From: a virus
Strand: one strand, 5' to 3'
DNA length: 52,688 nucleotides
IMG/VR virus record: IMGVR_UViG_3300042892_001926
Span: 1-52,688 of that record
Part shown: positions 8,999 to 15,890 of the stretch, piece by piece
How positions within the stretch are numbered: the first letter of the stretch is position 1
Layout: every line of letters starts with the position of its first letter
Position numbers and translations under genes: made by a program
Notes under the pieces: generated by a model
Databases searched by the model: none
The model's input: only the letters and a program-made list of their open reading frames with translations
What the model was told of the DNA's origin: nothing

Positions 8999-9709
8999 TC
9001 AACTCCAATACTTGGATGAATCCAATTTATCCCAATATGCTTTGTTGTTTCTGTTGACAAAGTTTTTTACCAGATATTTTCCCATACCTAGATAGCCCAT
9101 CTTTTTAAATCTGCGACTATCTTGTCCAAAGTAATGTCTTACAATTTTGAACTTTCTCGGACTATACTTTCGTGACAAGAAGTAGTCCTCGCTGGTTGAA
9201 AAATTTTCAGGGAAGCCACCAAACTCTTCAAAACGATCTCTGCGTGTCAGCATGAACGCTCCTACAGCAAAGGGTGAGAAATATTTCAATGTGTGATTGA
9301 TTACATTAAATGCAGTAAATCCAATTTTTGCTCGTACGTCATTGTCGTAGCATTTGATGTTCAAACCAACTAGATCCAAGTTCTTAGACTCAATTAAATC
9401 AACAGCATCCTGAATAACAGTGTTCTTGAAGAAACGTACATCGGCATCAATGAATAGGATATAAGGCGTAGTAACTAATTTGGCTCCGTTGTTCTTGGCA
9501 ATGGACACAGGTCCTCCGTCAATGACATCAACATTTAAACTTCCCTTCATTATTTCGATAACTTCTCGAGTGTTATCTGTAGAACAGTCAGCAATGATAA
9601 TTCTAGTGTTGCCTATTCTTTGCTGACGCAAATGCATTAACAAATGTGCTATGTAGTGTTCCTCATTCTTGCAAGGAACCACAATGGTAATTTTATCACT
9701 GAGTTTCAT
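8999..9709 (-). CDS. Family-2 glycosyltransferase
   Basis: The 236-residue GT-A fold starts ITIVVPCKNEE and continues with ADCSTDNT (nucleotide-binding Asp region), the metal-binding FIDADVRFF (DXD-like) and a later SEDYFLSRK motif (catalytic ED). GT2 enzymes transfer a sugar from an NDP-sugar to a lipid, glycan or protein. A weakly hydrophobic patch near ~135-160 may touch the membrane. The ATG at 9709 follows an AAGGAAGG site; an upstream GTG is an alternative. It has its own sigma-70-like promoter. With the LpxH-like gene upstream it suggests modification of cell-surface lipid or polysaccharide. Confidence 0.85.
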   Translation of the reverse strand: MKLSDKITIVVPCKNEEHYIAHLLMHLRQQRIGNTRIIIADCSTDNTREVIEIMKGSLNVDVIDGGPVSIAKNNGAKLVTTPYILFIDADVRFFKNTVIQDAVDLIESKNLDLVGLNIKCYDNDVRAKIGFTAFNVINHTLKYFSPFAVGAFMLTRRDRFEEFGGFPENFSTSEDYFLSRKYSPRKFKIVRHYFGQDSRRFKKMGYLGMGKYLVKNFVNRNNKAYWDKLDSSKYWS

Positions 9710-9746
9710 TTTTTTACACACCTTCCTTCGATCTTAAATTGACTAA

Positions 9747-9775
9747 ATTTTAGCCAGTATGTCATAGTTTGTAAA
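9747..9775 (-). promoter_or_regulatory. Sigma-70-like promoter of the glycosyltransferase gene
   Basis: TTTACA and TAAAAT on the minus strand, spaced by 17 bases, about 37 bases upstream of the glycosyltransferase ATG and just after the end of the phosphoesterase gene. Confidence 0.5.
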
Positions 9776-9781
9776 CTTTGT

Positions 9782-10627
9782 TCACAGGCTGCTCGGTCCT
9801 GAAACGTCAGTTCCACTCGTCCCGGCACGTCTCTTGGATCGTTTAAGTGAACTGCCAGTATTATCAATGTCCACATCGTCATGCTCCTTGGTCCATGTTA
9901 CAATTTCCCAGCGTCCGTCCCAGTGTTCAACTAGTGCGGTACACGACTCGACCCAGTCACCGTCATTCATATACATTACACCGTCTATCTCTTTTATCTC
10001 TGCGTGATGTATGTGTCCACAGATGACTCCATCGAATCCACGCTTCTTGCAGTAGCCAGCAAGATTCTTTTCAAACTGAAACATAAAGTCAACTGCTCGT
10101 TTAACTTTGTATTTGAGATACTTGCTCAAGCTCCAATAACCAAATCCCATCTTGTGACGTATCCAGTTGAACCTGCCGTTTAGATATAGCACAAAGTCAT
10201 ACGCCCTGTCGCCTAAAAACCCCAACCACGGCGCTAGTCGAGTAATGCCGTCAAACAGGTCTCCGTGTGTGACTAGATAGTGTTTACCGTCAGCACCTAT
10301 GTGTTCTATTTGATTGTGTATTTCTACTAGACCGAAACTAAACCCATATGGCATTATTGGTCTTAAGAATTCATCGTGATTGCCTGCTATGTAGATTACT
10401 CTAGTACCACGCTTGGCATGTCCCAGTACTCTACGTACTACATTGGTATGGCTTTGTTTCCAACGCCATTTGTTTTGTTGTATCTTCCATGCATCAATTA
10501 TATCGCCCACTAGATATAATGTATCACATGTGTTGTGTTTGAGAAAGTTATTTAACTTATCCGCTTGGCAGTCTTTAGTACCAAGATGAACATCACTAAC
10601 AAAGATTGAACGATAAGTTTTATTCAT
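9782..10627 (-). CDS. Calcineurin-like phosphoesterase, UDP-2,3-diacylglucosamine hydrolase-like
   Basis: All metallophosphoesterase motifs are present in order: SDVHLG (D12, H14), GDIID, GNHDE, THGD and CGHIHH. The fold, the length of the conserved part (~245 residues) and the EID-GVMYMNDGDWVES ending match the LpxH-like group of bacterial UDP-2,3-diacylglucosamine diphosphatases, which act in lipid A synthesis. Sequence alone cannot separate lipid A activity from other phosphoesterase activity. A Ser/Arg-rich tail of ~30 residues (SLKRSKRRAG...) extends beyond the domain and may be disordered. The gene lies between pstS and the glycosyltransferase and is unusual cargo for a phage. Confidence 0.82.
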   Translation of the reverse strand: MNKTYRSIFVSDVHLGTKDCQADKLNNFLKHNTCDTLYLVGDIIDAWKIQQNKWRWKQSHTNVVRRVLGHAKRGTRVIYIAGNHDEFLRPIMPYGFSFGLVEIHNQIEHIGADGKHYLVTHGDLFDGITRLAPWLGFLGDRAYDFVLYLNGRFNWIRHKMGFGYWSLSKYLKYKVKRAVDFMFQFEKNLAGYCKKRGFDGVICGHIHHAEIKEIDGVMYMNDGDWVESCTALVEHWDGRWEIVTWTKEHDDVDIDNTGSSLKRSKRRAGTSGTDVSGPSSL

Positions 10628-10686: not shown

Positions 10687-11691
10687 TTACTTAATCTGTG
10701 TCCAAACACGTTCACGGATCTGTTTTGTTAGTGCATCTGGTAATGGTACATAATCTAAGTCTACAGCATCTTTCTTGCCATTCTTAAATGCCCAGTCAAA
10801 GAACTTTAGCACTTCATCGCTAGTAGCTTTGTTAGCAGGAGTCTTATACATAATGATAAAACTTGCAGAACTTACTGGCCAAGCATTTGGATTCTTTTGA
10901 TCCACAATACTCAATCCCATACCTGGAACACTGAACCAATCAGCACCATCTGCGGCTGCGGCAAATGTTAAGTCATCTGGACTTACATATCGTCCTGCCT
11001 TGTTTTGTAGTTGTAGGAATGTCATGTTGTTCTTTTTAACATAAGCATACTCTACATAACCAATTGAACCTTTGATTCTGTTCACGTTGGCTGCAACACC
11101 TTCGTTGCCCTTGCCACCTACTGATGTGGCTGCGGGCCACTTGACCGCAGCACCACGGCCTACACGTTGTAACCACTCTGGGCTTACTGTAGCAAGATAG
11201 TCTGTCCAGTTGAATGTTGTACCTGAACCGTCAGCACGGTGTACAATAGTAATAGGCTGATCTGGTAGTTGTTTACCTGGATTCAATGCTGTTAATTTAG
11301 GGTCATTCCACCTAGAGATATTACCCATAAACACTTCAGCCATTACTAGTCCAGTGATACGTAGTTCTCCTGGCTTGAAGCCATCTAGGTTTACTACAGG
11401 AACTGTTCCGCCAATGATAGCAGGGAATTGAACCTGCGCCATCTTGTCCAAGTTCTCGCCGCTTACCGGAGCATCAGTTGCTCCAAAGTCTACTGTTTTT
11501 GCGTTGATTTGACGAATGCCGCCAGATGACCCTATGCTTTGATAGTTCATGCCTGTGCCTGTGGCTTTTTTATATCCTTCTGCCCACTTGGCATAGATAG
11601 GGAATGGGAAAGTAGCACCTGCGCCTGTAATGTCTGCGGCGGATGCCGATACTGCTACAGACGCTAGTAAAATTGCTAATAGTTTTTTCAC
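10687..11691 (-). CDS. pstS: Phosphate ABC transporter substrate-binding protein PstS
   Basis: A signal peptide (MKKLLAILLASVAVSASA) is followed by GAGATFPFPIYAKWAEGY, IGSSGGIRQI and DFGATDAPVS. It also has HRADGSGTTF, the phosphate-contact Arg-Asp-Ser-Gly-Thr loop. These define the periplasmic phosphate-binding protein of the Pst ABC importer. At 334 residues it is full length. No pstC/A/B genes are near, so it must work with the host permease. Phage pstS genes are known from marine cyanophages and are thought to boost phosphate uptake during infection. A Pho-box-like repeat lies upstream. The sequence looks betaproteobacterial in style (inference). Confidence 0.95.
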   Translation of the reverse strand: MKKLLAILLASVAVSASAADITGAGATFPFPIYAKWAEGYKKATGTGMNYQSIGSSGGIRQINAKTVDFGATDAPVSGENLDKMAQVQFPAIIGGTVPVVNLDGFKPGELRITGLVMAEVFMGNISRWNDPKLTALNPGKQLPDQPITIVHRADGSGTTFNWTDYLATVSPEWLQRVGRGAAVKWPAATSVGGKGNEGVAANVNRIKGSIGYVEYAYVKKNNMTFLQLQNKAGRYVSPDDLTFAAAADGADWFSVPGMGLSIVDQKNPNAWPVSSASFIIMYKTPANKATSDEVLKFFDWAFKNGKKDAVDLDYVPLPDALTKQIRERVWTQIK

Positions 11692-11765: not shown

Positions 11766-11782
11766 CTACAAGAATTTTTTGT

Positions 11783-11807
11783 CAAAAGAAAACCCGCCGA
11801 AGCGGGT
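11783..11807 (-). terminator. Rho-independent terminator of the tmRNA
   Basis: On the minus strand ACCCGC-TTCG-GCGGGT is followed by TTTTC and further T residues. It lies about 45 bases after the tag stop codon. The stem-loop is identical to the one after the outer-membrane protein gene. Confidence 0.85.
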
Positions 11808-11850
11808 CCTGCTATTTTCTGTTACGAGGTATAACTACCCTAAGCAGTGT

Positions 11851-11883
11851 TTAGGCTGCTAAAGCGAACTGTGAGTCGTTTGC
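11851..11883 (-). other. tmRNA tag-peptide reading frame (ANDSQFALAA)
   Basis: GCA-AAC-GAC is the resume codon and start, as in E. coli. The ten codons encode ANDSQFALAA then TAA. The ALAA end is the ClpXP-type degradation signal, and AND at the start matches the proteobacterial consensus. Only the middle (SQF instead of ENY) differs from the E. coli tag. Confidence 0.92.
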
Positions 11884-12032
11884 GTTTACTTTGTTTTGCT
11901 TCTTCGACCAGGTAGAGCGTCTTTCTGTGCTATGAGCACAACGACTACACTTTGCCCCCAATCCTAACGGCTTCTACATTGCCGGACTGTCCATTTCAAT
12001 ACTCTTGACCCAATCGATCCTGTGTCAGGCCC

Positions 12033-12141
12033 ATTATGAAGAAGACTGCGTTCTCAACGCACGGTAGCACGACCTCCATTAAAACCAACTCACATATTTC
12101 AGTGTTTTACGATTCTAATTTTAGTGCTATCATCCTCTTTA
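12033..12141 (-). other. Intervening segment of the permuted pre-tmRNA
   Basis: This 109-base stretch lies between the encoded CCA end of the acceptor piece and the first base of the acceptor stem in the coding piece. In permuted tmRNAs this internal segment is cut out during processing. It holds no protein frame of note. Confidence 0.75.
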
Positions 12142-12212
12142 TGGTGGACCTGGCGGGCACTGCCCCCGCGTCTTGAATCCTTTTCTGTCTACTTCATACA
12201 GTCTTAACTTAC

Positions 12213-12241
12213 AGTATATATTTATTCAGGAGTGTTGTCAA
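12213..12241 (-). promoter_or_regulatory. Sigma-70 promoter of the tmRNA
   Basis: Perfect TTGACA and TATACT separated by 17 bases on the minus strand. The -35 box is inside the last codons of the radical SAM gene. The predicted start at about 12206 is just before the acceptor piece, so the tmRNA can be made independently of the long operon upstream. Confidence 0.85.
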
Positions 12242-13538
12242 CTGTTTCTAATAAATTGGACACATCCGGAATGACTGTTCTCCAATCGGTCTTGCGAGTG
12301 GTATCTAGGTAGTCCATGAAGCGAACAAATTCACCAACAGCAGCGGCGTCGATATCGTGATCCAGCATGTTATGTAAATGTTCCAGTATTAATGTTGCTT
12401 TTGCACTGCCTGCTCGGCGTTGAGAATAATATTCTATCAGTTTCAACTTTGCTGCTCGTGGCAAATTATAAGTTGAATGATGAGCTGGGCCTTCCAAAAA
12501 TCTCACATGAAAGTTTACACCCATGCTTCTGCAAAATTTTTCACTTTCAATAATGCTGTAAACTGTGGCAATCTGAAAACAGGTGGTGATTGACATGAGT
12601 TTTACATTCTTGAATTGTCTCTCGTACTGTTTGAGTTTTTTTATATTTTCTACAAATTTTTCCCATCGGCCGCCTGATCTTATGAGTTCATACTCGGCAC
12701 CTGTGGCATCCATGCTGGCTCTAATATGTACTGCTCGAAAGTGTTGCCACCTTTGAGCAATTTTGTCATTGATTGCGCTACAGTTGGAATCGTATTCCAG
12801 GCGTATGTTTTTTGCATGTCCGTTTGCTATCAACCTATCCAGCATTTCGTCATGTGCTGGTGTTACCATGGGTTCGCCACCAGTGATATAGATATGTCTC
12901 AGTGATCCTGCCATTTGATCAAACTTTGGCCACCAACGTGGATCTTCGAACCAATGCAACTGCGGCGGATCAATCCACTTGTTGGTAGACAAGTCTTTAG
13001 TGATCTTGACCACTGTTCCTTGACCGAATGTGTCTTTTTTGTAATAGTCTACAAATTCGTCGTACCACAAATTACTGAATACAGGATCACACATGATGCA
13101 TTTTTGATTACACAGGTTTCCAAATCTCACATCAAGGCTACTGGGCAACCAATCAACTGACCCGTCTGATGATATTTTGTCCGAGTAATTGTGTTCAGTT
13201 ACTAGATCAGCAGTATCAACGTGTGTCATTAATTGTATTCTTCTACTGCTGTTGGGATGTGTTCGACGTTGTTTTGTCACATGTTCTCTGTGCTCGCAAC
13301 AATCGCAATGCGGACTCCATTCTGTAGGATTGGTCTTGTTAAACAGTCGAACTTCACGATGTTTGTCACTGTTCATTATATCATGCAGATCGTGTGTCAA
13401 TATGTGCATCACATTGCCATCTTTGTCCCTGCATCTCTGCATGTCCAATTCTTTTTTGCTGTTCGATCCTATACTGCAAAGCCTAATGTATCCATCGGGC
13501 AATATGTGTAGTCCGTTCCAGACAGTTTTACAAAACAT
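12222..13538 (-). CDS. Radical SAM protein with extra N-terminal cysteines
   Basis: The 438-residue protein carries the radical SAM cluster motif CNQKCIMC (C143, C147, C150) and TGGEP (219-223), which binds SAM. Strand-like LRHIYIT and VHIRASMDA segments fit the partial barrel. The N-terminal ~80 residues hold C3, C21 and CDCC (C78, C80, C81) in a context like SPASM/twitch auxiliary cluster sites (ILPDGYIRLC ... HCDCC), here placed before the barrel. Such enzymes start radical chemistry on peptides, RNA or small molecules. Twitch-type radical SAM proteins of unknown role occur in phages. The start overlaps the stop of the upstream oxygenase gene, and it is the last gene of the 20.3-12.2 kb operon. 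Confidence 0.85.
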   Translation of the reverse strand: MFCKTVWNGLHILPDGYIRLCSIGSNSKKELDMQRCRDKDGNVMHILTHDLHDIMNSDKHREVRLFNKTNPTEWSPHCDCCEHREHVTKQRRTHPNSSRRIQLMTHVDTADLVTEHNYSDKISSDGSVDWLPSSLDVRFGNLCNQKCIMCDPVFSNLWYDEFVDYYKKDTFGQGTVVKITKDLSTNKWIDPPQLHWFEDPRWWPKFDQMAGSLRHIYITGGEPMVTPAHDEMLDRLIANGHAKNIRLEYDSNCSAINDKIAQRWQHFRAVHIRASMDATGAEYELIRSGGRWEKFVENIKKLKQYERQFKNVKLMSITTCFQIATVYSIIESEKFCRSMGVNFHVRFLEGPAHHSTYNLPRAAKLKLIEYYSQRRAGSAKATLILEHLHNMLDHDIDAAAVGEFVRFMDYLDTTRKTDWRTVIPDVSNLLETVDNTPE

Positions 13539-14080
13539 TATGTTAAATTTTCAAGCAGTGTGTTTTTGATGCTTTCAAACGGCGTATCAACCCATTGCCA
13601 GGTTATGAATCTACGTATGCCGTTGTTGGGAGAATTTACAGAATGTATTTGACTTACATCTAATAGATACAATTCATCTGGTTCTGCGGTAAACTCGCCT
13701 ACCTGTGTCACTTGATCTAGTGAATAAATGTTGGCTACTGTTCTGCCAGGGTACACAAAACCTTGAGCATTTGGTTTTTTGTTGTAAAAATGAGTTGTTG
13801 AACCGTTGGTGTCTAAATAATAATTTGCACATGCAGATATATTGTGATCTATATGCGGCAGCAGATGTCCCGAGCCAGTAATTTCTGCCAACTGAACCTG
13901 AAAGGGTGCAACTGTTCCGTAAAACATTTTTTCTGGCAGCAGGCTTTGAAAATATTCGTAGTCGTTGAGTCGATAATAGGTCAACGTTGGACGTGGTGGC
14001 CTACCAAACGATGTGACCACACTGCCTTTTAGTCTTTCAAAGTCAACATTGGTTAATTTAAATTTGATCTTTTGGAACAT
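13538..14080 (-). CDS. 2OG-Fe(II) oxygenase-like protein, prolyl-hydroxylase-like pattern
   Basis: The double-stranded beta-helix signature is clear: PHIDHN (iron ligands H and D), YYLDTNGSTTHFYN, VSQIHSVNSP (second His) and IRRFITWQW (2-oxoglutarate-binding Arg). The pattern resembles phage 2OG-Fe(II) hydroxylases. The ATG at 14080 is picked because GAG lies six bases upstream; ATG 14086 and TTG 14095 are in frame. It is distinct from the neighbouring pair at 14058 and 14663 and sits directly upstream of the radical SAM gene. The substrate is unknown. Confidence 0.72.
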   Translation of the reverse strand: MFQKIKFKLTNVDFERLKGSVVTSFGRPPRPTLTYYRLNDYEYFQSLLPEKMFYGTVAPFQVQLAEITGSGHLLPHIDHNISACANYYLDTNGSTTHFYNKKPNAQGFVYPGRTVANIYSLDQVTQVGEFTAEPDELYLLDVSQIHSVNSPNNGIRRFITWQWVDTPFESIKNTLLENLT

Positions 14081-14666
14081 CGTCATCTCTTTCAATTATT
14101 AGGTCTCTGTCTCTCATCCAGCTCACAATTTCTTTCCAGAATTTGTTTTCTAACAAGGCAACTCTTGCGGAAATGGCCCATCGTGGCTCTTCTCCCATGA
14201 TCACAGCATGTGGAATTCCTACTCTGGTCAAAGTCAATTCAGAACCCATGTTACACCTGTCAATCTCTGTAAGTTTATTAATTGGCCAGTTGTAGAATAT
14301 GGTGCCGGCTGCATCCCGTTGTGGAGGTTTTGCATCAATTTTTGGTAGATTGTACCAGGTCATGTCGCAGTCGCTTCCGCCAATTACCCAGTTAAGTCCG
14401 TATGTGGAAATTCTTATAGGATGATGTTTGTGAATATCTATGTGTGCGTTGAAAGTGTTGTATCCAGGTGCTCTATAAAATACCAACGCATCTCCAAATT
14501 CAAAACCTAACAATTTTATTTCTTTGATCCATTGAGGATTAAAAATTTTGCTTGCAGGAACGTCCCATATCCCAAACTTTTTCCCCTGGGGATCGGGAAA
14601 TTTCCAGTCTGGATTGATTGCATTGCTACAATCAATCTTTAATTTGTACCAACAATGTTCTTTCAT
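14058..14666 (-). CDS. 2OG-Fe(II) oxygenase-like protein, paralog A
   Basis: This protein (202 aa) shares its whole plan with the next gene: NPDWKFPD start, FGIWDVPASKIFNPQWI, FYRAPGYNTFNAHIDIH (HXD), YGLNWVIGGSDCDMTWYN, then IPHAVIMGEEPRWAISARV (distal His and Arg). The two arose by tandem duplication and have diverged. The HXD...H...R order fits Fe(II)/2OG enzymes, related in pattern to the aspartyl/asparaginyl hydroxylase side of the superfamily. It overlaps neighbours on both sides, so translation is coupled. The substrate is unknown. Confidence 0.68.
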   Translation of the reverse strand: MKEHCWYKLKIDCSNAINPDWKFPDPQGKKFGIWDVPASKIFNPQWIKEIKLLGFEFGDALVFYRAPGYNTFNAHIDIHKHHPIRISTYGLNWVIGGSDCDMTWYNLPKIDAKPPQRDAAGTIFYNWPINKLTEIDRCNMGSELTLTRVGIPHAVIMGEEPRWAISARVALLENKFWKEIVSWMRDRDLIIERDDDVPKDQI

Positions 14667-15256
14667 AGAGATCTTTCAACTAAAATATTTTTTGAACGCA
14701 TTAGATCGACAACTTTCTCCCAAGGCATATCGTTGGGAATAAATGTTCTTGCAGAGAAACACCACCTAGGTTCTTCGCCCATCACAATAGCATGTGGCAA
14801 GCCTGTTTTTACCAATGTTACCTGTTTGTCAATGTGACATCTTTCAACTTCTTTCAATTCTTTCAAGGGCCAGGATACATAGGGAGTGTTGACACGAGTG
14901 TATGTAATTTTTTCTTTGGCATTAGGTGGCAGTTCATACCACACCATTTCACTGTTTTTGCCGCCTACACACCAGTTTATACCAAAATTGTGAATTCTAA
15001 ATGGCTCTGCTGTGCTAACATCTATGTGTCCATCCACAGTGTGTGCATGTGATCCTCTGTAAAAAATCATAGCATTCACAATAGGAAGCCCAATGGATCC
15101 CATGTAAACCAGCCACTCCTGGTTAAAAATAAGATTGGATGGCGGTTGCCAAACTCCGTATTTGCCAGTTACGTCAAATGTGACACACTGCTGTTTCCAG
15201 TCAGGCTTGAGTGCATTTGATACATCAATGTTCAACCTGTAATAACAATTATTCAT
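14663..15256 (-). CDS. 2OG-Fe(II) oxygenase-like protein, paralog B
   Basis: This is the partner of the 14058 gene. It has KPDWKQ, YGVWQPPSNLIFNQEWL, FYRGSHAHTVDGHIDVS (HXD), FGINWCVGGKNSEMVWYE and LPHAIVMGEEPRWCFSAR. Both share the unusual MGEEPRW block after the distal His, which may mark a subfamily. The ATG at 15256 follows a possible GTG; the upstream stop overlaps it. The protein is predicted cytoplasmic. It could act on the same class of substrate as its paralog. Confidence 0.68.
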   Translation of the reverse strand: MNNCYYRLNIDVSNALKPDWKQQCVTFDVTGKYGVWQPPSNLIFNQEWLVYMGSIGLPIVNAMIFYRGSHAHTVDGHIDVSTAEPFRIHNFGINWCVGGKNSEMVWYELPPNAKEKITYTRVNTPYVSWPLKELKEVERCHIDKQVTLVKTGLPHAIVMGEEPRWCFSARTFIPNDMPWEKVVDLMRSKNILVERSL

Positions 15257-15890
15257 CACGTATGTATCCTAATCTTGTTAATATATTTTTGCAATTTTTA
15301 AAAGTACGAATACCGTGTTCTCGGTTGAAATTCCATCCAACTACAATTCTTTCTTGGCTGCTGAGATTTCTAACACCGTGCCATTCATGTGTTGCTGTCA
15401 AATATGCATGAGTATTTATTGCATAGGTGTACACCGCAGGAGCCAATGCCGAGTACATTTGGCGTTCTCCAAATTTGTTCAGCTTTGGAATATCATAGTA
15501 TTCTGATACGCATTGATCTGAGCAGCCTGATATTGGAAAATAAATTGCCTCACCTCGCCAACCTCTGTCAATGTGTGGATACATTATTGCTCCAGCAGGA
15601 ATTTTTGTAATAACAGCAGCTTTTTCCATAAATGGCAACAGATCTGAAAAGTGTTGCCATAATGGATCGTTGTCTGCTTCTTCTACTACAAATCCGGCAT
15701 TGTCATGTCCTCTGTCGTATCCAACTCCAGTTTCCCAACTGGCACCTTTGAACCACAATGCCGATGTTGCTGTGCCTGTGTATTTTTCTGGCATGTGCAT
15801 TTCAAAATATTTGAAATACAGTTGTTGCATTGCATTCAGTTGTGTTTCACTGAAATGCAATTTGGCAAACAACTCACTAGCCGGTTTCAT
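15249..15890 (-). CDS. 2OG-Fe(II) oxygenase-like protein (213 aa)
   Basis: The motif order is MYPHIDRGWRG (HXD), AIYFPISGCSDQCVSEYYD, then ATHEWHGVRN (distal His) and ERIVVGWNF (Arg). The core is again a cupin-like double-stranded beta-helix. The N-terminal ~60 residues include an Ala/Trp-rich GTATSALWFKGASWETG segment not seen in the others. It overlaps the GNAT gene upstream by four bases and paralog B downstream by eight. It is the fourth oxygenase-like protein in a row. Substrate unknown. Confidence 0.68.
   Translation of the reverse strand: MKPASELFAKLHFSETQLNAMQQLYFKYFEMHMPEKYTGTATSALWFKGASWETGVGYDRGHDNAGFVVEEADNDPLWQHFSDLLPFMEKAAVITKIPAGAIMYPHIDRGWRGEAIYFPISGCSDQCVSEYYDIPKLNKFGERQMYSALAPAVYTYAINTHAYLTATHEWHGVRNLSSQERIVVGWNFNREHGIRTFKNCKNILTRLGYIRDE

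Follow-up and report, generated by a model that had tools for sequence, protein, structure and literature searches.

The stretch of DNA analysed here, referred to as the window, is a linear fragment of 52,688 bp constituting IMG/VR virus record IMGVR_UViG_3300042892_001926. Its minus strand carries a gene for transfer-messenger RNA (tmRNA) in permuted order, the 3' (acceptor) piece preceding the 5' (coding) piece with an intervening segment, or spacer, between them. We take this gene to be a permuted tmRNA of a T4-like phage lineage and propose that this virus group uses the spacer as a cargo slot for protein genes, a reading to which we assign a probability of roughly 0.87. The permuted tmRNA of the window is of a known kind and it is the cargo slot that is new; no report of protein genes within a tmRNA permutation spacer was found in the open-licence literature.

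The slot emerges from comparison of the window with its closest relatives. Four viral loci (L183, L027, L139 and L146) are 100% identical to the window over the 62-nt acceptor piece and the initial 70 nt of the coding piece, and in two others (L143 and L158) the pieces are 100% and 96–97% identical. Spacer identity to the window at these loci is 0.24–0.48, the level for shuffled sequences being 0.41, and the spacers vary in length and in their open reading frames (ORFs): 220 nt with an ORF of 69 codons in L183, 141 nt with 42 codons in L027, 71 and 64 nt with no ORF in L139 and L146, respectively, 373 nt with 120 codons in L143, and 220 nt with 69 codons, encoding a DUF2061 protein, in L158. 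Since near-identical RNA pieces enclose unrelated spacers, the spacer constitutes a cargo slot outside the conserved RNA, and the sequence comparison shows a group of viruses in which cargo has apparently been gained and lost between close relatives. Of 62 RNAs of the window's lineage, 16 have a spacer filled by a complete ORF; such frequencies apply among the matches listed and are not population estimates, and spacer detection demanded a perfect acceptor stem and an encoded CCA.

That the spacer ORFs could be products of chance or of assembly artefacts, the spacer being a mere linker, appears very improbable given their properties. For spacer sets that were found regardless of spacer content, and among the matches listed, a single ORF extended over at least 75% of the length in 21 of the 33 spacers of 150 nt or more, compared with 0.53 expected from dinucleotide shuffles and 0 on the antisense strand. 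The total of 66 nested ORFs constitutes 41 families, and families are a safer count than loci because many contigs are fragments of near-identical viruses; half of these ORFs (33 of 66) derive from one spacer set chosen for a Shine-Dalgarno (SD)-like start, which was kept apart in the ORF-filling statistics and is included in the other counts. Ratios of nonsynonymous to synonymous change (dN/dS) between homologous nested pairs were mostly 0.06–0.36. Strong Pfam matches were obtained for nested proteins, including thioredoxin (L129, 1e-20), DUF2061 (L158, 4e-21) and DUF6356 (L153 and L020, 7e-10 and 4e-11), together with GNAT (L415, 2e-6) and HNH (L378, 5e-4). The tmRNAs tested around nested genes were intact by RF04321, the Rfam model tmRNA_permuted, with scores of 62–138 bits.

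Moreover, one nested protein of 122 amino acids (aa) was found at 16 viral loci. At 13 of them, which are at least 90% identical and have both flanks on the contig, the gene lies in a tmRNA spacer in every case, and these 13 separate contigs differ in their flanks, with T loops of three types and no fewer than seven different tags; at 2 further loci the contig ends, the gene running straight into the coding piece. A sequence search of the PDB with this family yielded nothing significant. A fold model of the protein (predicted local distance difference test, pLDDT, 75) retrieved mostly GNAT acetyltransferases, none below E 0.03, and on the basis of this model the protein looks weakly GNAT-like.

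Several observations weigh against a cargo slot, and the first of them also lend some weight to chance ORFs. The window's own spacer is geneless and the cargo part of our reading rests on relatives: an SD-like AGAGG-ATG is followed by 8 codons and a stop, this being the longest ORF, and a nested gene was ruled out given that length and a frame stopping short of the usual stop. A plus-strand frame across the spacer was taken as chance. Most relatives also lack a spacer ORF, and for spacers of 90–150 nt there is a moderate excess only, 15 of 68 being filled to at least 75% by an ORF, compared with 3.9 in shuffles and 4 antisense. One family (L183, L206 and L357) exhibits dN/dS ratios of 0.69–1.40, with no constraint seen, on 5–8 differences, which are too few to tell. 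A 68% homologue of the 122-aa protein (L463) lies outside any tmRNA. Finally, searches of phage records yielded no phage isolate with a nested gene; for four nested proteins, relatives were found for the thioredoxin only, as ordinary genes, and the tmRNAs carrying nested genes gave no matches or short ones to the tRNA part.

Some features of individual nested genes deserve separate mention. The HNH-like ORF (L378:5947-6429, 156 aa), for which the Pfam match is weak, raises the possibility that the spacer may serve as a homing site. Several of the unrelated nested proteins of L405, L365, L143, L164, L179 and L415 start with MRIxEI, MKISELT or MRIKELTES, recalling the T4-type head-targeting peptides that are cut by prohead protease, and these proteins are perhaps packaged in virions. 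The nested protein of L164 is 104 aa long. The L206 contig, which holds a tmRNA with a nested gene, also carries a GOLLD RNA (RF02032, 192.6 bits, at 9451-9914) enclosing a tRNA, amid dozens of tRNA genes.

The nested genes are set within a shared frame. A helix of at least 6 bp closes the spacer in 196 of 218 RNAs, against 53 when ends were mixed between RNAs, with many pair types at each position, and 185 of the 218 spacers end in TGAT. In 51 of 66 cases the nested gene starts 9–12 nt after CCA, and 43 of the 66 genes stop at the TGA of TGAT, so placed that 1 nt separates the stop codon from the coding piece. It is this placing of the stop at the shared TGAT that gives unrelated nested proteins a common end such as KVSL, an end that is missing from the one relative found outside a tmRNA. 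An SD-like sequence, often TAAGGA ahead of nested genes, is present at the spacer start in 22 of 33 nested versus 28 of 145 non-nested spacers (Fisher p 3e-7), and both it and the stop are located in or beside the spacer-closing helix. Given that the helix and TGAT also occur in geneless spacers, the nested gene uses what the RNA provides. A different arrangement is seen in a group of permuted tmRNAs with the acceptor GGGGATG and no encoded CCA (ACCT), in L132, L140, L148, L150, L165, L174, L199, L232 and L239, where the spacer consists of a short hairpin, CACCTAAGTGTA...TATATTTAGGTG, continuing the acceptor stem.

As to why genes are nested, we consider simple occupation of free space more probable than regulation. 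We incline slightly towards the reading that the nested genes are real and merely fill space in a compact genome, with no functional link to the tmRNA, since the cargo is diverse, with its 41 families, and comes and goes among close relatives, and the spacer is the sole segment that has no function once the RNA is mature; nevertheless, the supply of an SD-like sequence and a stop by the RNA frame, and the retention of the slot by one family despite changing flanks and tags, may point beyond mere packing. Split tmRNA genes of viruses could be self-regulating cargo genes with their output coupled to trans-translation capacity, which we regard as unlikely. Such coupling would require that the nested mRNA, ending 1 nt past its own stop, is excised in the same processing that produces the tmRNA, and that loss of its last nucleotides generates a non-stop message, the nested protein then being tagged by the enclosing tmRNA in an arfA-like manner. 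The arfA mRNA of Escherichia coli lacks its stop codon and the gene is repressed by trans-translation (PMC10107115), and it offers a possible model for nested genes ending 1 nt past their stop, although arfA itself is not inside a tmRNA.

The sequence-only reading of the window had described a complete permuted tmRNA with acceptor and coding pieces reversed, and this description holds: RF04321 matches the minus strand at 12203-11851 over its full length (model 1-213 of 213) with 95.1 bits (E 3.1e-17; gathering score 47 bits), and the match is not noise. Acceptor piece, spacer and coding piece follow one another in a single transcript unit. The acceptor piece, of which identical copies occur in at least ten other viral RNAs, comprises the P2 5' strand, the T arm GCGGG-GGCAGTG-CCCGC, the acceptor 3' strand CAGGTCC and ACCA; the spacer ends could pair over 8 bp beside the acceptor stem, and the coding piece contains the acceptor 5' strand GGGCCTG, a conserved ACACAGGATCGATTG, the P2 3' strand, the tag and a 3' region. 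As had been claimed, a 7-bp acceptor stem spans the break, with GGGCCTG (12032-12026) pairing with CAGGTCC (12152-12146) at 7/7 positions, including G3-U70, followed by the discriminator A and an encoded CCA, and the tag reads ANDSQFALAA. Sequences for the promoter and the rho-independent terminator attributed to the gene are both present, the putative promoter being sigma-70-like and near consensus; it ranks top of 10 promoter-like sites within 3 kb and, judging from its position, the RNA would start near 12205-12200, and the terminator stem is also listed on the plus strand in a motif scan.

Comparison with tmRNA search tools, which had been proposed as a check, gave a divided result. RF04321 was positive, RF01849 (alpha_tmRNA) barely so with 52.0 bits against a gathering score of 50, no beta match was reported and ARAGORN reported no tmRNA on the window, so that the sequence-only reading had spotted what that program misses. 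The subtype is mixed, since relatives with the same tag match RF01850 and the window is barely alpha. Its T arm is alpha-like but it has a short tag of beta/gamma form, and this combination accounts for a score barely over the alpha cut-off and for the lack of a reported beta match. An extra hairpin of about 40 nt precedes the tag (window 11990-11890), yielding a tag offset of 149 compared with 85 or 108; the hairpin is common to the window, L027, L043 and L145, and a late tag also occurs in L156, L177 and L206.

The tmRNA looks to be under selection. A set of 58 viral-contig RNAs sharing the 5'-piece motif was aligned as 50 distinct rows, and changes on both sides of a pair were observed in the acceptor stem (G-C to U-A and C-G), the T stem (G-C to C-G and U-A) and the proximal P2 (A-U to G-C); in the distal P2, pairing is visible by eye in most sequences. 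G3-U70, the main identity element for alanyl-tRNA synthetase, is kept in all 50 aligned homologues and, because some of these were found with a pattern fixing part of the acceptor, it was recounted in a set found by tag alone, where it is present in 71 of 71 RNAs.

These compensatory changes across the 50 viral homologues suggest a selected RNA and no relic, and together with invariant G3-U70 and the intact promoter and terminator they agree with the earlier view of a functional gene. The opposing explanation is that the tmRNA is a host fragment or relic acquired at an integration site and functionless in the phage. Genes for tmRNA are common as integration sites, and such an origin is considered in the tmRNA passages of PMC9004378. 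However, the gene is complete, it is present in many viruses, the ANDSQFALAA tag is nearly absent from bacterial genomes, many related copies have PstS or phosphatase genes close by, and no evidence of integration was seen; an integration scar was rejected and we consider a relic exceedingly improbable.

Permuted tmRNA is common in aquatic phages, and the rarity that had been assumed for phage tmRNAs, and for permuted ones in particular, does not hold. IMG/VR was scanned in three ways, none selected on the spacer: by an alpha-type T arm, by the 5'-piece motif and by sequences that encode the tag ANDSQFALAA. Each scan gave at least about 119 matches, and the tag occurs in at least 119 viral contigs. 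Among published cases, the tmRNA passages of PMC9004378 give 402 phages with tmRNA; two-piece structures number 53, of which 50 belong to marine or aquatic phages. In PMC11915505, 79 phage tmRNAs are listed, and its catalogue comprises 11,946 permuted tmRNAs. Nor is the T loop GGCAGTG unusual, as had been supposed: it is present in 70 of 70 viral RNAs sharing the 5'-piece motif ACACAGGATCGATTG and resembles the Rfam alpha T-loop consensus GGCgGUA.

The comparison of tags with wider collections, also suggested by the sequence-only reading, proved informative. Against the many viral matches, a species-level collection of bacteria and archaea (one genome per species, about 85,000) contained ANDSQFALAA once only, in L131; the pattern is too specific for frequent chance matches in the collections scanned. 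L131 is a 3-kb contig of a lake metagenome-assembled genome and carries phage-type protease and tRNA genes, and permuted tmRNA scores over cut-off in 3 of 49 genomes of the family concerned. Because the family mostly lacks permuted tmRNA and the genes are phage-like, L131 was taken as a misbinned phage contig, and host assignment via the tag was abandoned with no host inferred. ANDSQFALAA may thus be a virus-associated tag, with the limit that the genome collection may lack the hosts. The viral RNAs with this tag have T loops GGCAGTG, TGCGAAT, TTCGATT and TTCGACT, and other tags, for example ANDEQFALAA and ANDNYYTEELRLAA, occur in relatives that share the window's 5' motif; judging from these sequences, the tag and the two RNA pieces seem to be reshuffled by recombination.

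A virus-specific tag could also serve takeover, marking host proteins or evading host degradation control. Selective tagging of host proteins is proposed in the tmRNA passages of PMC9004378, and the near confinement of ANDSQFALAA to viral contigs, across T-loop types, fits such a role. The tag nonetheless retains the ordinary AND...ALAA form, related RNAs bear other tags and the scarcity in bacteria may reflect absent hosts, and we remain doubtful of this explanation.

A host with two-piece tmRNA had been deduced from the permutation, and this stands only weakly. Unannotated permuted tmRNAs over the Rfam cut-off were found in L466 (Xanthomonas phage X1), L467 (Rb1) and L468 (Stenotrophomonas phage QDWS359), the last having a hypothetical protein annotated antisense across it, as well as in L343 (Rhodobacter phage RcXuper) and L344 (Pelagibacter phage HTVC008M). 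The Xanthomonas and Stenotrophomonas hosts are not known to have any but a one-piece tmRNA. When phage records were searched by blast with the window tmRNA, either nothing matched or the matches were short and confined to the tRNA part. An alpha-type tmRNA is, moreover, carried by Melnitz, a phage of OM43, as stated in the tmRNA passages of PMC9004378.

Melnitz, a Methylophilales phage, and the pelagimyophages likewise provide examples of permuted tmRNA in T4-like aquatic phages (PMC9004378, tmRNA passages). The Melnitz tmRNA (L342) scores 113 bits with RF04321 and has a promoter upstream; it differs in its tag ANDNYVPVDYALAA and in a glutamine riboswitch downstream. Nested genes are not among the subjects of the tmRNA passages of PMC9004378. 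By eye, the Melnitz spacer is open behind an SD-like site but runs into the coding piece, and it was not counted as a nested gene. The two-piece tmRNAs of Alphaproteobacteria, Betaproteobacteria and Cyanobacteria (RF04321; RF01849, RF01850, RF01851) have the same gene order and share with the window the acceptor stem with G3-U70, T arm, P2, tag frame with resume codon, and CCA; unlike them, the window's gene is on a virus and the spacers of its relatives hold protein genes. Genes for tmRNA with group I introns, some containing homing endonuclease genes, are described in PMC11915505 and similarly place a protein gene inside a tmRNA gene, but there a self-splicing intron lies in the T loop, whereas here the permutation spacer is occupied and no intron is involved. 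The same paper reports one permuted tmRNA with tRNA-Ala in its spacer and one with a repeat; these also have extra spacer content, as single cases of an RNA gene or a repeat, whereas the protein genes found here belong to 41 families and come from dozens of viruses.

From established tmRNA biology, the transcript would fold with the acceptor stem closing across the spacer, and RNase P and the tRNA 3'-end nuclease would then excise the spacer, the two RNA pieces staying paired; such cleavage of two-piece tmRNA is stated as probable in PMC3985003. Host alanyl-tRNA synthetase would charge the tmRNA through G3-U70 and, with host SmpB, the RNA would rescue stalled ribosomes and add A-ANDSQFALAA, the ALAA end of which should send tagged products to ClpXP. 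We infer from their sequences that nested genes would be translated, either from the nascent precursor during its synthesis or from the excised spacer, the slot in the window being empty.

The features of the tmRNA gene and its immediate neighbours are listed in Table 1. Phage-like genes elsewhere in the window encode large and small subunits of ribonucleotide reductase, a T4-type baseplate lysozyme protein and large tail fibre proteins, and a virion structural protein is nearest to those of Synechococcus phages and Puniceispirillum phage HMO-2011. The PstS-like gene is followed by a metallophosphatase and then a glycosyltransferase, and tblastn synteny places this module near tmRNA genes of related viruses as well; several of the window's neighbour genes recur beside the tmRNA in L158 and L143. 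Two ORFs at 14058-14666 and 14663-15259 show about 37% mutual identity, as in a tandem duplication, and have no Pfam or PHROG match.

Table 1. Features at and around the permuted tmRNA gene of the window
Feature	Position	Strand	Basis
Radical SAM/SPASM protein, 438 aa, upstream neighbour of tmRNA	12222..13538	-	Pfam
Sigma-70-like promoter TTGACA-17-TATACT	12213..12241	-	Consensus scan, 11/12; overlaps 3' end of radical SAM ORF
3' (acceptor) piece, 62 nt	12142..12203	-	RF04321, compensatory changes
Intervening segment (spacer), 109 nt	12033..12141	-	Absent from predicted mature RNA
5' (coding) piece	11808..12032	-	RF04321, RF01849, alignment of 58 homologues; predicted mature 3' end approximate
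Tag frame GCAAACGACTCACAGTTCGCTTTAGCAGCCTAA, ANDSQFALAA then stop TAA, after resume codon	11851..11883	-	Translation
Rho-independent terminator ACCCGC-TTCG-GCGGGT then TTTTCTTTT	11780..11807	-	Direct sequence reading
PstS-like phosphate-binding protein, downstream neighbour of tmRNA	10687..11691	-	PHROG 5385

Phage tmRNAs, and the permuted ones especially, are thus no oddities and occur in large numbers in aquatic viruses, with a tag that is hardly seen in sequenced bacteria. Annotation pipelines may miss many such RNAs, as ARAGORN does here, and small nested genes may have been called without the surrounding RNA being noticed. On our reading the permutation of the gene gains a use, the discarded spacer becoming a slot in which protein genes are exchanged among otherwise near-identical RNAs, and a message lying inside the precursor of a rescue RNA would provide a system for studying the interplay of RNA processing, translation and ribosome rescue.
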